DNA from: a virus
Virus record (IMG/VR): IMGVR_UViG_3300015195_000011
Coordinates: 1-43,304 of that record
Reading direction: 5' to 3' (one strand)
DNA: 43,304 nt
The notes beneath the pieces are model-generated. The model did not search any database. It was not told where the DNA came from and saw only the letters and a program-made list of their open reading frames with translations. Shown in pieces: positions 2,000-43,187 of this stretch. Each line of letters starts with the position of its first letter. Within the stretch, counting starts at the first letter, position 1. Position numbers and translations under genes: made by a program.

Positions 2000-2788
2000 A
2001 TGAACACTAAAGCCGAAGACTGGGAAATGGAAGAAGCGATGGAAACGGGCAGGCCAAAAGTGATCCTGCGTTATGGCGAGATAGCCGCAGCCCTGGCAAA
2101 GGCACAGGCTGAGATGCACAACCCAAAATTTGATGCATCCAACCCATTCTTTAAGTCCAAGTTTGCCTCACTCGCTGCGGTGCGCAATGCGGTCATTCCG
2201 ATGCTCGCTAAGTATGGGATTTGTCTTACGCAAGACCTGACGACCACCGAGGGGGCTATCTCTTGCCGGACGATCTTGACGCACGCAAGCGGTCAGCAAA
2301 TGATCTTTGGCCCCCTGACCCTGCCTATCTCGAAAGCCGACGCACAAGGCTATGCGGCGGCGGGAACCTATGCCAAGCGCATCTCCATGCAATCGGTCGT
2401 CGCTGTGGTCGGGGATGATGATGATGATGGGGAGTCGATGAAAAAAACCAACGGCCATACCAACGAAGTTACGGATAAGCAGCGTGCTGCGACTCATGGG
2501 CGGCTAGACGAGATCAATGGCGATCTGGGTAGAAACGTTGCGCCCGCAGAGGCAGAGCGACATGCAATCACCATGCGCTCTATCCTGCAAGAGGACGTAG
2601 AGCATCGGATAAAAGCGCTGAAGGTTCTCGATTACCACCACGTCATCAACAAGGATCAAGACCTCTACGGTGCTGCGAGTAAGTTCCTCACCCCGGCGGA
2701 GCGCAGCGAATGGAAAGCTTATCGGGATGAGGCCAAGCAGCAAGAGGCCGATGACAGAAAGGTGACCAATGTAGGCAAGCGGTTTTGA
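2000..2788 (+). CDS. erf: Erf-type single-strand annealing recombination protein
   Basis: A 262-residue protein of the ERF family (P22 Erf). These proteins bind single-stranded DNA ends and anneal homologous strands, supporting genome circularisation and recombination. Family hallmarks seen: NPFFKSKFASLAAVRNAV (about residues 48-65), a hydrophobic LAKYGICLTQ segment, then HASG and DAQGYAAAGTYAKR, and an acidic GDDDDDGE at the end of the core (about residue 140). The last 110 residues are variable and rich in charge, which is normal for the family. AGGAG precedes the ATG. It sits directly before a Ref-like nuclease gene, forming a recombination pair. Confidence 0.9.
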   Translation: MNTKAEDWEMEEAMETGRPKVILRYGEIAAALAKAQAEMHNPKFDASNPFFKSKFASLAAVRNAVIPMLAKYGICLTQDLTTTEGAISCRTILTHASGQQMIFGPLTLPISKADAQGYAAAGTYAKRISMQSVVAVVGDDDDDGESMKKTNGHTNEVTDKQRAATHGRLDEINGDLGRNVAPAEAERHAITMRSILQEDVEHRIKALKVLDYHHVINKDQDLYGAASKFLTPAERSEWKAYRDEAKQQEADDRKVTNVGKRF

Positions 2789-3099
2789 TCGATCAATCGC
2801 GAATGGAAGCGGCCATGGAATTTTTAGCTGACACGGATGAAACCTTTGCCGAGGCCAAAGCGCAATTGCTGCGCAGTGAAATTCTGGTCAAACGGGTGCG
2901 GGCGCGAGTCATTGTGAACGAGGAAGGGCCAATGGACCTGCGTAAAGCGAAAGCAGAGGCGCACCCTCAGGTTGGAGAGGCAGACGAAGGGCTTATAGAG
3001 TCCACCCTAGCATTCGAGTCCCTAAAGGCTCGCAGGAGCCGCGCAGAGATCGTTATCGATGTCTTTAGAACGCTTGAGGCGTCGAGGCGTAAGACGTGA
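2785..3099 (+). CDS. Conserved phage protein associated with recombination genes
   Basis: A 104-residue helical protein. Its C-terminus, RRSRAEIVIDVFRTLEASRRK, matches the ending I associate with a small phage family usually encoded beside Erf or RecT genes. The biochemical role is not known to me. The TTG start overlaps the Erf stop (TTGA); an ATG at 2803 is the alternative but has no visible ribosome site. The stop overlaps the next gene. Confidence 0.65.
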   Translation: MIDQSRMEAAMEFLADTDETFAEAKAQLLRSEILVKRVRARVIVNEEGPMDLRKAKAEAHPQVGEADEGLIESTLAFESLKARRSRAEIVIDVFRTLEASRRKT

Positions 3100-3437
3100 A
3101 AAAGGCCGATCTAGAGCGCTTTCGTCGACTACACGCAACCGGCTGTATTTGTTGTGAAATGTTGGGCGAAAGGTACCGCGGACCCACTGAAATACACCAT
3201 ATCGTCGACATGGGCTATCGCAAGCATTCAGGGGGCCATCAGGCGACTTTGCCGCTGTGCGCCTATCACCATCGGGGCGTTATCACTAACGCAGATCATG
3301 CCTCTTGGCGGCAAGTCATGGGACCGGCACTGTCGGACGGCTCGAAAGCATTCCGCGCCAGATGGGGCACTCAGCGAGAACTCTTGGCAAGAGTGAACGC
3401 AGGGATCTTAAAAGAAAAAGAGAAAAAACATGACTAA
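3096..3437 (+). CDS. Ref-like RecA-dependent HNH nuclease
   Basis: A 113-residue protein resembling the C-terminal catalytic domain of phage P1 Ref, a nuclease that cuts DNA within RecA filaments. Visible motifs: GCICCEML (residues 17-24), EIHHIVDMG, then LPLCAYHHRG, the two His-rich halves of an HNH-like site, and FRARWGTQRELLARV near the C-terminus, which is characteristic of Ref. Its position after Erf suggests the two act together on recombination intermediates. GTG start, overlapping the previous gene by four bases. Confidence 0.75.
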   Translation: MKKADLERFRRLHATGCICCEMLGERYRGPTEIHHIVDMGYRKHSGGHQATLPLCAYHHRGVITNADHASWRQVMGPALSDGSKAFRARWGTQRELLARVNAGILKEKEKKHD

Positions 3438-3819: not shown

Positions 3820-4302
3820 ATGGGTCTTGAGATCGTGCCTATGAATATCAGCGATGCCAAAGAGTTTGTGGCACAGCATCATCGACACCATTTACCGCCG
3901 GTCGGAGCGCTCTTTGCAATTGGTGCATCCATGGCCGGTGAGATTGTCGGAGCGGCGATTGTAGGCAGGCCGGTGGCCCGTAGGAGCGATGACGGATGGA
4001 CAGCGGAAGTGACGAGGATGGCTACGAACGGAACGCGCAATACCTGCTCGATGCTATATCGCGCTTGTTGGCGCGCAGCATCCGCAATGGGCTACAAACG
4101 ACTTGTGACATACACCTTAGCGACCGAGACGGGAAGTTCATTGAGAGGCGCCGGATTCAAACTCATCGGGACAGTACCGGGGCACTCGTGGTCACGTACG
4201 GCCAGACCAAGAGTGGACCGCCATCCGACGCAAGATAAGTTTCGGTGGGAATGCTCCGCCGTTCTCGCAGAGACACCCGCTACGAACAAGGGTGAGACGT
4301 GA
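3820..4302 (+). CDS. XF1762-family phage protein (acetyltransferase-like fold)
   Basis: A 160-residue protein of the XF1762 type common in proteobacterial prophages. Seen: AQHHRHHLPPVGALFAIGA near the N-terminus, AAIVGRPVARRSDDGWTAEV, RMATNGTRNTCSMLYRACW, AMGYKRLVTYTLATETGSSL, and a C-terminal WSRTARPR followed by KFRWE. These match the family pattern along the whole length. The family is GNAT-like in overall look, but its substrate is not established to my knowledge. The next GTG overlaps its stop. Confidence 0.8.
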   Translation: MGLEIVPMNISDAKEFVAQHHRHHLPPVGALFAIGASMAGEIVGAAIVGRPVARRSDDGWTAEVTRMATNGTRNTCSMLYRACWRAASAMGYKRLVTYTLATETGSSLRGAGFKLIGTVPGHSWSRTARPRVDRHPTQDKFRWECSAVLAETPATNKGET

Positions 4303-7941: not shown

Positions 7942-8143
7942 CGAGTGTCGGATGCGCGCCGGTCGCTTCCGCTATCGAGGTTGTGGCGGCGTGAACCTCG
8001 GCAATCTTGGTTGCTGCAACGTCCAGTTTGTCAGAGTTGGAGGCCGATACCTTGGCCTGTCTTAGCTGCAGGATGACGTTACCTAAAACACCTGCAAGGG
8101 TTGCAACCGAGGTTAATATTGCCGCTATGCCTTCGCCTGTGAT
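7928..8143 (-). pseudogene. Small membrane protein gene split by an HNH insertion
   Basis: The 71 codons read [21 protein letters not shown] at the start, one hydrophobic helix and then an Ala/Ser/Thr-rich tail. The first codon here is ATC, not ATG, although AGGAGAAG lies just before it. An in-frame TAG is upstream. The same opening with ATG (MTGEG) stands at 8742, right after the endolysin gene, on the other side of the HNH gene. Removing the insert between the two 18-nt copies restores one clean gene that overlaps the endolysin stop (ATGA). The gene is either inactive or starts at the rare codon ATC. A holin-like or other lysis accessory role is inferred from place and topology only. Confidence 0.6.
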
Positions 8144-8652
8144 GGGCTTCTCCTGCTATTGCGCTTATTGCGCGCCTGGATAGTTAATGACGCCCAACGG
8201 CAATTATTCGGCTCGTAGTCGCCGTCATTGTCGATGCGATCGATTTGAAGGCCGACAGGTTTTTCACCCATGTCAGCAAGAAAATTCTCAAATGTTTTCC
8301 ATCGATCACATACTTTTATGCCGCGACCGCCCCAATCGAGATATCGAATGTTTTTCGGGTTGTTGCATCTCGCTCGCATGTTTTGCCAACAGACATACGT
8401 TGGAGACTTCCCTTCTCGCATATGCCCCAGAGTATGTCCATGCGTAATGGTATGTCTGCCTGCAATCTCTTTTAAGTAGCATCCACATGAAGTGCTGTGA
8501 TTGCGACGCAGACTCTGAAGATCTACTATTCGTTCGGTGCCACAATCACATCTCGCTAGTACTTTCCGAAGTCGAGTCTTAGATTGAGCGTCTGCAAGAA
8601 CAGTCCAACGATTGAACCGGATTCCTGGCGTGATATGCTTTCGGATAGACAT
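8125..8652 (-). CDS. Homing-type HNH endonuclease with zinc ribbon
   Basis: A 175-residue protein. An N-terminal zinc ribbon (CDCG ... SCGC, about residues 38-62) is followed by the segment [14 protein letters not shown], then [20 protein letters not shown], and the nuclease core [17 protein letters not shown]. This is the same family as the product of 9510-10142. Such genes are mobile: they cut unoccupied alleles and are copied in by repair. I start at the ATG at 8652; the longer frame to 8742 reads through the copied target sequence. Its stop codon lies inside the second copy of the target repeat. Confidence 0.8.
8127..8144. repeat. Direct repeat, distal copy
   Basis: ATGCCTTCGCCTGTGATG. 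It differs from 8726-8743 by one base, at 8141. That base changes the target gene's start codon from ATG to ATC on the - strand. Confidence 0.85.
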
Positions 8653-8725
8653 TGGCTTTGCTCCACAAGGCTGATGTTTAGGGTGGCGCGGTGCTAGTAA
8701 CATCGCGTCACCCGAGTATATCATC

Positions 8726-8743
8726 ATGCCTTCGCCTGTCATG
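8726..8743. repeat. Direct repeat, proximal copy
   Basis: ATGCCTTCGCCTGTCATG. On the - strand it begins with the ATG that overlaps the endolysin stop and encodes MTGEG. Confidence 0.85.
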
Positions 8744-9456: not shown

Positions 9457-9497
9457 TGAAGTCTCCTTAATTTTAAGAATTTGCAATGGTCTTACCG

Positions 9498-9503
9498 TAT
9501 AAT
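9498..9503 (+). promoter_or_regulatory. -10 box (TATAAT) six bases before the HNH start codon
   Basis: A perfect TATAAT ends six bases before the ATG at 9510, so transcription should begin at or next to the A of AUG (leaderless mRNA). No clear -35 is present at 16-18 bases. Confidence 0.5.
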
Positions 9504-9509
9504 TGCTGC

Positions 9510-10142
9510 ATGCGTAACATCATGGGTCAGAGATTCGGACGTCTCTTAGCCATCAATCCAATCATGGGCCTACGAGTACGCGGGTATCGCGTATGGCGTT
9601 GCGTTTGTAATTGTGGTGGCGTAAAGAATGTGCCACTAAATCACTTGCGTAATTCGCGAAGTGGAACGCGATCATGTGGTTGTCTTAGAAAAGATGTAGC
9701 TGCGTTGCTGAGTCTTGAGCGAAAACACAAGCATGGTATGTGTAATACCCAGACTTATCGAAGCTGGCGCAACATGAAAAACCGATGCATTTGTCCTTCC
9801 GCTAGGGACTACCCTAAATATGGTGGTCGTGGCATTAGCTTCTGCAAAAGATGGCAAACGTTCACCAACTTCCTTGCGGATATGGGCGAATGTCCACTTG
9901 GATATTCTTTAGAACGTATTGATGTAAATGGCGACTACAAGCCAAGCAATTGCAAATGGATTCCGTGGAAAGATCAGTACAACAATACCCGGCAAACCCG
10001 TGCTATAACCTGTTTTGGTGAAACACTTACTTTGGCGCAATGGGCGAAACGTACAGGCATCCATCGCAATACGATTGAAAATAGAATCAATAAAGGGTGG
10101 CCATTGGAAAAAGCATTGGGCCTACTCAGCTGTTCGCAATAA
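9510..10142 (+). CDS. HNH homing-type endonuclease on the opposite strand
   Basis: A 210-residue protein of the same family as the product of 8125-8652. It has an N-terminal zinc ribbon (CNCG ... SCGC), then YRSWRNMKNRCICP, YGGRGISFCKRWQTFTNFLA, the core LERIDVNGDYKPSNCKW, and an extra C-terminal helix-turn-helix (ETLTLAQWAKRTGIHRNTIE). It is read against the late operon, between the lysis genes and a tailspike gene, and its end overlaps the tailspike end by 17 bases. An ATG at 9486 is in frame but lies upstream of the -10 box, so I use 9510. Confidence 0.8.
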   Translation: MRNIMGQRFGRLLAINPIMGLRVRGYRVWRCVCNCGGVKNVPLNHLRNSRSGTRSCGCLRKDVAALLSLERKHKHGMCNTQTYRSWRNMKNRCICPSARDYPKYGGRGISFCKRWQTFTNFLADMGECPLGYSLERIDVNGDYKPSNCKWIPWKDQYNNTRQTRAITCFGETLTLAQWAKRTGIHRNTIENRINKGWPLEKALGLLSCSQ

Positions 10143-38594: not shown

Positions 38595-38972
38595 TTATCC
38601 AGCGTGCCTGTTTGTAACACTTTCAGGTGCGTTAGGGGAAATCTTTTGTAGGAGTTCGTGATGTACCGCATGCTCTGCCTGTCTTACACGCGCTCTTGCG
38701 GTACGTGTTTGACACCCTAACTTGCTTGCCACATGCCCGAAGGTTAAGCGCCTTTGGTACCTTAAGATCAAGACTTGCCGGTACTCCCAGGCTATCCGGC
38801 ATACAGCCTCTTCCACCTGCCAGACATCGGGCGGGATATGCCCTGAACCAAAGAGGGGTGTTTTTAGCGCCCTTTCGCCGAACATCGGCGACATTGACGG
38901 ATAGGAAATGTTTTGTGATTCGCCCCATCTTGCCCACTCTCTTAAGAGCCTGATTGTGGATAAATGAATCAC
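38595..38972 (-). CDS. Sigma-70 region 4-like / Q-like late regulator candidate
   Basis: A 125-residue basic protein. The C-terminal half has EEAVCRIAWEYRQVLILRYQ and LTFGHVASKLGCQTRTARAR, a helix-turn-helix like that of sigma region 4 and of phage late activators. I use the GTG at 38972, preceded by a strong GGAGG at 8 bases. Being the last gene before a terminator that separates it from all late genes is the position of lambda Q, so an antiterminator or late activator role is inferred. No Q family is matched with certainty. Confidence 0.65.
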   Translation of the reverse strand: MIHLSTIRLLREWARWGESQNISYPSMSPMFGERALKTPLFGSGHIPPDVWQVEEAVCRIAWEYRQVLILRYQRRLTFGHVASKLGCQTRTARARVRQAEHAVHHELLQKISPNAPESVTNRHAG

Positions 38973-39014
38973 TTCGCCTCCATGTAAAAAGGGCGGGCTG
39001 TCCCGCCCCAAGTC

Positions 39015-39413
39015 CTATCGCCTGCTTACATTTGGGTCTGTCTTGGTCTCGCCTTTGGTTTTCTGGTCCCTCTGTAAGTCAGCCTGGCCTCTCTGTACGT
39101 TCTGCTCGGTCCTCTGCGTGTTCTCATCGTGCGTCCCTTGAGCCGAATTGACCTGCGCACGCTGGTCACGTGTTGCAAAGTGATTGCACCAAAAGGAAGC
39201 CTCTATGAGCTTCTGTTTGATCACTTCCACCTCGAGGCCGTGCTGGCCCTTGATGACGTTGTTATCGATAAACCGCAGTAGCTCATCGCATTTCTGGCGT
39301 ATCTGCTGCACGGTTTTATGCTCAGGTGAGCCGCTATCCATCGGCTTGTATTGGGTCCGAAATAGATTCGGATCGTTCATCGTGTTTCTAGTTACTTCTG
39401 CTGTTGCACTCAT
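39015..39413 (-). CDS. Hypothetical protein with possible Acb2/Tad1-like hairpin
   Basis: A 132-residue protein. The middle (about residues 30-80) is a helical hairpin, VQQIRQKCDELLRFIDNNVI then LEVEVIKQKLIEASFWCNHF, whose pattern resembles the second, shorter gene at 39848-40069. The last 45 residues are Gln/Arg/Thr-rich and probably disordered. If the resemblance holds, it could bind cyclic nucleotide signals; this is a weak inference. Confidence 0.5.
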   Translation of the reverse strand: MSATAEVTRNTMNDPNLFRTQYKPMDSGSPEHKTVQQIRQKCDELLRFIDNNVIKGQHGLEVEVIKQKLIEASFWCNHFATRDQRAQVNSAQGTHDENTQRTEQNVQRGQADLQRDQKTKGETKTDPNVSRR

Positions 39414-39443
39414 ACATCGCCCCTTGTCGTTGGTTTACACACA

Positions 39444-39851
39444 TCAACTCAAGTAATTCTCTATCGCCTTCTTGGCCGCTTCCCAGCCTTTACAAACTGC
39501 CGCTGCGTAGCCGACGCTGAGCATGTCTAGCTGAAACGCCGCTTGCTCCATACTCACTACCCCTAAATGGCGCCTCTTCAGCTCGATCCAGAGGCCGCCT
39601 GCACTAGCCGTAGGGATGGCTAGCAGGTAATCAAATACGCCTGCCTTAAATCCCGTGCGCTTCATTCTCGCCATGGTTATGTGGCGTTGGCGAAGATCAC
39701 CACCCAAATAGGCACCATTTGGAATCATGATCAGAAAGTTGCTCAAGGGAGCGCCCTTCCATCTCTTGACCCTGGCCCATTCGCACAGGCACTGCGCTTC
39801 CTGATCTTCGGTGGGAAGGGTCGCTTTTAACTTTAAGGCAGCTATTTTCAC
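39444..39851 (-). CDS. VRR-NUC domain nuclease
   Basis: A 135-residue protein with a full VRR-NUC core: a GVFDYLLAIP strand (Asp74), GGLWIELKR (Glu90, Lys92) and the downstream Gln107 helix, and a GYAAAVCKGWEAAKKAIENY ending. Stand-alone VRR-NUC proteins are structure-selective nucleases, common in phages near replication genes. I use the GTG that overlaps the previous stop (GTGA); a GTG at 39875 is an alternative. It is flanked by two hairpin proteins of Acb2-like pattern. Confidence 0.88.
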   Translation of the reverse strand: MKIAALKLKATLPTEDQEAQCLCEWARVKRWKGAPLSNFLIMIPNGAYLGGDLRQRHITMARMKRTGFKAGVFDYLLAIPTASAGGLWIELKRRHLGVVSMEQAAFQLDMLSVGYAAAVCKGWEAAKKAIENYLS

Positions 39852-40069
39852 CCTGTTACGTGCTTCACTGCCCACATCACCGCTTCTTCGATCTTCGTCA
39901 ACGCAAGGGAGATCTCTCTACTTGCTCCAATGTCTTTGATCAACGAATGAAACTTCAAACCTTCATCCTTGATCGCCCGCATCTGGTCCTGCTCGGTTCC
40001 TGTGAGCGTACGATAGGTGTGTCGCATCACATTCCCATTGCTCGTTACAGTTACTGATGTATCACTCAT
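39848..40069 (-). CDS. Acb2/Tad1-hairpin-like protein (possible anti-CBASS)
   Basis: A 73-residue protein. YRTLTGTEQDQMRAIKDEGL is followed by a short linker and SREISLALTKIEEAVMWAVK. The spacing and helix pattern match the small phage proteins with an Acb2/Tad1-type helical hairpin. Acb2 forms a hexamer that traps cyclic di- and trinucleotides and so blocks CBASS immunity. The region sits among middle genes, overlapping both neighbours by four bases. I cannot test binding residues or homology here. Confidence 0.6.
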   Translation of the reverse strand: MSDTSVTVTSNGNVMRHTYRTLTGTEQDQMRAIKDEGLKFHSLIKDIGASREISLALTKIEEAVMWAVKHVTG

Positions 40070-40329
40070 AATCGTCTCCTTTGATTAAGCCGTTTCTTTC
40101 TGCTGCTGTCTGTGACGCTCGCAAACTCGATTGCTTCGCGCTTTGTTTGGATCTCACGCGCTAGATTCTCGTAACCGTTCCGGCCATGCATCCAAATCTC
40201 AAAGCCGCGTATCTTGTCGATTATTTCGTATGGATAGGACTTACTCATCAGACCCTTGGTAATCCAGTTGCTGTTTTTGGGGCCGTGCCAGTTGCTACTT
40301 CTTGAGCCTTGAGGTGTGCGCCGTTTCAT
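40066..40329 (-). CDS. Hypothetical basic protein
   Basis: An 87-residue, strongly basic protein. The first 27 residues (MKRRTPQGSRSSNWHGPKNS onward) are low complexity, and the rest (MSKSYPYEIIDKIRGFEIWM) may be a small folded domain, with an alternative start there. The ATG at 40329 overlaps the stop of the small zinc gene (ATGA). Function unknown. Confidence 0.6.
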   Translation of the reverse strand: MKRRTPQGSRSSNWHGPKNSNWITKGLMSKSYPYEIIDKIRGFEIWMHGRNGYENLAREIQTKREAIEFASVTDSSRKKRLNQRRRL

Positions 40330-42785: not shown

Positions 42786-42836
42786 GGCACTTTTGCCGCC
42801 CTGAATAAATATTCTCGCTCGTTACCACTTTAGGTG

Positions 42837-42865
42837 TTGACAGATAACACCGATAGTGGTTTAAT
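42837..42865 (+). promoter_or_regulatory. Strong early + strand promoter with operator O3
   Basis: TTGACA (42837-42842), a 17-base spacer, and TTTAAT (42860-42865). The spacer contains AACACCGATAGTGGT (42846-42860), a third copy of the operator motif. It should drive the early operon running through 43304 into the left end, under repressor or Cro control. Confidence 0.75.
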
Positions 42866-42899
42866 GCCTCCCATGGTCAACAAAACACAGGGGAGCGAG

Positions 42900-43187
42900 A
42901 TGACAGTAAAGAAGGAACGCGCAGTGCTCGTGACGACCGCACATCGCGGCGTCTTTTTCGGCTACGCAAAGGAAACGAGCGGCGCAACGATTGCACTTCG
43001 CGCAGCACGCAACTGTATTTACTGGCCGACCACGCAGAAAGGTTTTTTAGGCTTAGCTGCGTTTGGTCCTGCTGAGGGTAGTCGTATTGGTCCTGCGGCT
43101 GATCTTGAACTGCGTGACATCACGAGTGTTGCTGCATGCACGGATGAAGCGGTCAAAGCATGGGAGGCGGCGCCGTGGAGCTCCTAA
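42900..43187 (+). CDS. DUF6948-like phage protein
   Basis: A 95-residue protein. RAVLVTTAHRGVFFGYAKET, then LRAARNCIYWPTTQKGFLGL, GSRIGPAADLELRDITSVAA and the end EAVKAWEAAPWSS match along the full length the pattern I recognise as DUF6948. Function unknown. I use the ATG at 42900 with GGGGAG at 7 bases. The stop overlaps the next ATG. It is the first gene of the early operon and is paired with the Gly-rich repeat protein. Confidence 0.8.
   Translation: MTVKKERAVLVTTAHRGVFFGYAKETSGATIALRAARNCIYWPTTQKGFLGLAAFGPAEGSRIGPAADLELRDITSVAACTDEAVKAWEAAPWSS

Follow-up and report, generated by a model that had tools for sequence, protein, structure and literature searches.

A predicted cyclic-nucleotide sponge of the Acb2/Tad1 hairpin family and a probable divergent hairpin protein encoded around a VRR-NUC nuclease gene in a phage

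The locus and its surroundings

The DNA analysed here (the window) comprises 43,304 bases and is a virus record of IMG/VR. It codes for a portal protein, the large subunit of the terminase, a head-closure protein, a DNA-ejection-like protein and a major head protein, together with CI-like and Cro/YdaS-like regulators, and we infer that it is a temperate podovirus-like phage. Three open reading frames of the minus strand, coding for proteins of 73, 143 and 132 residues, were analysed (Table 1). An earlier note on this DNA had described them as a possible anti-CBASS pair of hairpin genes around a VRR-NUC nuclease; the three frames are present as described, and both hairpin candidates carry Shine-Dalgarno-like sequences. 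The 73-residue protein gene overlaps the preceding gene by 4 bases. The gene of the 132-residue protein lies two genes downstream of it, in the same direction, and ends 3 bases from the open reading frame of a Q-like late regulator. The true start of this regulator is likely the GTG at 38972, because its relatives align from residue 14-16 and a Shine-Dalgarno-like sequence is found at this GTG.

The nuclease between the two genes was identified using a profile of 7 relatives, which matched the solved VRR-NUC structure PDB 4qbl (E=9.8e-23). G79, D82, E98, K100 and Q111 are invariant among the relatives (D82, E98, K100 and Q111 being the PD-(D/E)XK residues). Judged by this match, the 143-residue protein is a true VRR-NUC nuclease, as the earlier note had proposed.

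Table 1. Features of the locus (window positions)
Feature	Position	Strand	Basis
Shine-Dalgarno-like AAAGGAGA of the 73-residue protein gene	40075..40082	-	sequence; normal spacing
Acb2/Tad1 hairpin protein, 73 aa, predicted cyclic-nucleotide sponge	39848..40069	-	PF24729 match
VRR-NUC (PD-(D/E)XK) nuclease, 143 aa	39444..39875	-	profile match to PDB 4qbl
Shine-Dalgarno-like AAGGGG of the 132-residue protein gene	39420..39425	-	sequence; normal spacing
Probable divergent hairpin protein, 132 aa, with polar C-terminal extension, orphan	39015..39413	-	sub-threshold PF24729 match
Lead-in motif NLFRTQYKPM (residues 16-25 of the 132-residue protein)	39339..39368	-	hhalign, BLASTP, MAFFT
Segment of the 132-residue protein matching PF24729 positions 9-53 (helical hairpin)	39183..39323	-	Pfam profile search
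Gln/Arg/Thr-rich polar tail of the 132-residue protein, 49 residues	39018..39164	-	AF2 model; predicted continuation of helix 2
Q-like late regulator, sigma-70 region 4 / antiterminator-Q-like domain	38595..39011	-	domain matches

Several further genes were observed elsewhere in the window. A Mom-like DNA modification protein (3820-4302, plus strand; phrog_1384, E=1.1e-36) has a possible anti-restriction role. An Erf-like single-stranded DNA annealing protein (2000-2788, plus strand) and a Ref-like RecA-dependent nuclease (3096-3437, plus strand; PF16786) share an early gene cluster. Two HNH endonucleases, both phrog_374 (8125-8742, minus strand, and 9486-10142, plus strand), are likely mobile, and a DUF6948 protein (PF22253, E=1e-23; 42834-43187, plus strand) adjoins the CI-like repressor gene.

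The 73-residue protein

The 73-residue protein matched the Pfam family PF24729 (Acb2_Tad1_hairpin) with 69 bits, compared to a cut-off of 27 (E = 4e-19), and the match spanned model positions 1-57 of 58. At least 370 relatives were found in IMG/VR and four good ones in INPHARED, where they are labelled 'hypothetical protein'. When a profile of its relatives was compared with the PDB, the top nine matches were T4 Vs.4, p26/Acb2, 'Acb2 homolog 43' and Tad1. The motif in which the earlier note had recognised the Acb2/Tad1 layout occurs in the protein, and 20 relatives show it with little or no variation; the residues invariant in all 20 are Y19, R20, L22, E26, M30, K34 and D35, and also S50-R51-E52, K59, E61-E62-A63 and M65-W66. 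NCBIfam and PADLOC searches returned nothing informative on this protein or on the 132-residue protein. By its sequence, and as the earlier note had read it, the 73-residue protein unequivocally belongs to PF24729 and so adds a new member to a family already known for counter-defence. Its direct subfamily (about 44-74% identity) is an unnamed group in IMG/VR and INPHARED with the pattern 'NNVMRHxYRVLSDxEK...SRELSLAKTKIEEAVMWAVKHIT', which includes Sinorhizobium phage Aussie, podovirus ctCJ8213 and others. To our knowledge, no member of this subfamily has been characterised; the 73-residue protein clearly puts this abundant environmental subfamily, labelled 'hypothetical' in the phage records examined, among the counter-defence sponges. 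In one relative (L076:3983-4678, plus strand) the open frame does not stop at the hairpin but extends 156 residues beyond it and contains hydrophobic stretches; this may be a fusion or a frame read-through.

In the AlphaFold (AF2) model (mean pLDDT 84), a beta-hairpin of modest confidence (4-10/13-19; residues 1-20 are of low confidence) is followed by helices 24-43 and 51-71, the two long antiparallel helices characteristic of the PF24729 family. Helix 1 and its lead-in (YR.LS..E...M...K..G) are Acb2-like, while helix 2 (SRE...A.T..EEA.MW) is Tad1-like, so that the ligand could be any of those bound by Acb2 or Tad1. The protein resembles Acb2 (PF24729; PaMx33 gp24, T4 Vs.4 and VP882 p26) in its small size, in the Y-R/K-x-L lead-in, in the lysine of helix 1 and in the end of helix 2, (E)A-x-M-W, but it has a predicted N-terminal beta-hairpin instead of a short helix, and a shorter loop between the helices. 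It resembles Tad1 (Thoeris anti-defence 1) in having strands ahead of the helical pair and in the helix-2 signature SRE-x-x-x-A-x-T-x-x-E-E-A-x-M-W, which is closest to that of Tad1. By contrast, it has two predicted strands, not four, it is 73 residues long, not about 123-138, and the sequence match to Tad1 is limited to helix 2. The protein could help to link Acb2 and Tad1, because it unites an Acb2-like helix 1, a Tad1-like helix-2 signature and a predicted beta-hairpin start.

In the alignments, Y19 and K34 correspond to Y11 and K26 of PaMx-type Acb2 and to Y8 and K23 of T4 Vs.4; R51 aligns with R67 of PaMx-type Acb2, whereas T4 Vs.4 lacks an arginine there. The ligand-contact positions (Y8 of T4; Y11 and K26 of PaMx33) are therefore kept as Y19 and K34. 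In T4 Acb2, F82 stacks on the ligand and Y8A disrupts cyclic dinucleotide binding; binding or function was lost in the Y8A and F82C mutants (PMC12657218). Between them, Acb2 and Tad1 bind cyclic dinucleotides, cyclic trinucleotides and gcADPR (PMC12043709).

By analogy with this family, the 73-residue protein is predicted to be a small sponge that assembles as a homo-oligomer of helical hairpins. It would bind the cyclic nucleotide alarm signals that host defences make (those of CBASS, perhaps also those of Thoeris or type III CRISPR), and capture of the signal would keep the suicide effectors off during infection. We infer oligomerisation, ligand and effect on defence from the family, membership being what the searches established. 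CBASS is one of several possible targets, as the superfamily also binds the gcADPR of Thoeris and the cA3 of type III CRISPR.

The 132-residue protein

The earlier note had seen a similar hairpin in the 132-residue protein. The quoted hairpin is present, but the resemblance is weaker: the HMM search that the note had proposed, in which the 73-residue protein was far over the PF24729 cut-off, gave 17.4 bits for the 132-residue protein, under the cut-off of 27 (E=0.007 library-wide; a six-frame search of the window, in which it was the second PF24729 match, gave E=2.3e-4). Non-members in other virus records (about 100) gave PF24729 matches of 15.2 and 14.1 bits at best. The likeness extends beyond the Pfam match, as the lead-in NLFRTQYKPM matches NVMRHTYRTL of the 73-residue protein, both sharing N-x-x-R-x-x-Y-[RK]-x-[LM], and also matches GYKP of T4 Vs.4. 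hhalign and BLASTP aligned the 132-residue protein with the 73-residue protein or its family over the full domain, lead-in included. The end of helix 2 of the hairpin family is repeated, and YKP and K-L-x-E-A-S-x-W are common to the 132-residue protein and T4 Vs.4 (MAFFT). The tyrosine that aligns with Y8 (T4)/Y11 (PaMx33) is kept as Y22. The AF2 single-sequence model (mean pLDDT 72.5) is a helical hairpin (helices 35-54 and 62-120), a generic fold.

Other results point away from homology. Against newly built family profiles, the 132-residue protein scored 5-7 bits (p ~ 1e-3 to 4e-4; a few of 20,000 shuffled copies scored higher), although these profiles (built from about 80 close members or 10 diverse ones) lack the breadth or the depth for a decision. 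The hhalign probability against the 73-residue protein or the family was 2-9%. Homologues of the protein were found neither in IMG/VR (using the sequence alone and with an alignment), GTDB genomes, INPHARED and PLSDB nor among 50 related phages. Compared to the 73-residue protein and its family, K34 is replaced by R39, the SRE arginine R51 by L60 and the conserved helix-2 threonine T58 by Q67. Foldseek against the PDB gave no Acb2 match and no match at E<=0.001 for the 132-residue model; for the 73-residue model there was none at E<=0.001 either, and T4 Vs.4 appeared at rank 20 (E=3). As the model of a certain family member also failed to single out Acb2, this search is uninformative for both proteins. 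Repeats were looked for around the gene of the 132-residue protein and none were found.

Overall, the 132-residue protein is probably a divergent hairpin of the Acb2/Tad1 superfamily, and the earlier reading of its sequence is more likely to be right than wrong. The new architecture proposed for it hinges on this homology, which is only probable; compared to Acb2, the protein has a tail of 49 polar residues in addition.

Arrangement of the genes and competing explanations

The arrangement of the three genes was compared in related records, many of which are fragments, so that absences are indicative. A PF24729 gene over the cut-off was present in none of 50 coat-protein relatives and in none of the four records with relatives of the VRR-NUC nuclease, which makes the hairpin genes look accessory. 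Among 46 phages with a PF24729 (Acb2-type) gene, none had a second one over the cut-off. No VRR-NUC relative was found near 80 relatives of the 73-residue protein, except for two matches at E~0.09. Altogether, none of about 100 related records showed this pairing of the hairpin genes or their placement on either side of the nuclease; the anti-CBASS pair of the earlier note is not supported as a unit, nor is CBASS its only candidate target. A coat-protein scan of GTDB genomes for prophage relatives found none.

The nuclease would be an ordinary phage gene, upstream of the Q-like late regulator in some relatives. In one phage (G053, coat protein 85% identical), the nuclease relative adjoins and precedes the Q-like gene and the record holds neither hairpin gene. 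In another (G065, coat protein 86% identical), a different 202-residue protein is encoded downstream of the nuclease, in the slot occupied here by the gene of the 132-residue protein. The 202-residue protein recorded from a related phage as L193:1337-1945 (minus strand; phrog_4652, of unknown function), encoded directly downstream of the VRR-NUC gene in this slot, is the product of a candidate accessory or counter-defence gene. In the window, the genes of the 73- and 132-residue proteins look like separate accessory insertions on either side of the nuclease rather than members of a conserved pair or module.

The best explanation of the locus, which as a whole we consider moderately probable, is a 73-residue sponge and a probable diverged second sponge, inserted separately around an ordinary nuclease and not forming the parts of one machine. 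Most likely, the 132-residue protein would be a hairpin of the Acb2/Tad1 superfamily that has diverged strongly and carries a long polar tail, helical or disordered; it might act as a second sponge that prefers another ligand. In its full form, in which the tail is a long helix and two sponges that differ in ligand range occupy neighbouring accessory slots of one phage, this proposal is tentative. If it is correct, this phage would combine two diverged hairpin sponges, perhaps to deal with different alarm molecules or to evade decoy systems, such as Panoptes, that penalise the common type, and this would bear on how phages answer decoy-based defences.

It is also conceivable, at a level of belief that stops short of favouring it, that only the 73-residue protein is a sponge and that the 132-residue protein is an unrelated orphan, an accessory protein of helical or coiled-coil structure that resembles the hairpin by chance and through shared helical composition. 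The sub-threshold score, the lack of relatives, the weak scores against our own profiles (which some shuffled copies exceed), a family outline that fits any two-helix protein and the lack of a specific fold match would agree with this. However, the best non-member score among about 100 records stayed below that of the 132-residue protein, the N-terminal lead-in matches outside the Pfam segment, and a true family member is encoded two genes away. A hairpin paralogue that has lost ligand binding, acting as partner or regulator of the 73-residue protein (for example in mixed oligomers), is unlikely. The loss of the SRE arginine and of the helix-2 threonine while the packing positions W75, E71-A72 and K68-L69 are kept would suit such a partner, as would the closeness of both hairpin genes in one operon, but the ligand-stacking tyrosine (Y22) is retained, and the 46 other family records, with no second hairpin over the cut-off, give no sign of a conserved partnership. 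The least likely reading joins the three genes in one counter-defence or DNA-processing module, with the nuclease acting together with the hairpin proteins. The genes are contiguous and on the same strand; nevertheless, we rejected the module, as the linkage does not recur: all four searched records with nuclease relatives lack a PF24729 gene, the 80 relatives of the 73-residue protein lack a nearby VRR-NUC relative (bar the two marginal matches), and in the record of G053, which holds no hairpin gene, the late gene comes after the nuclease.
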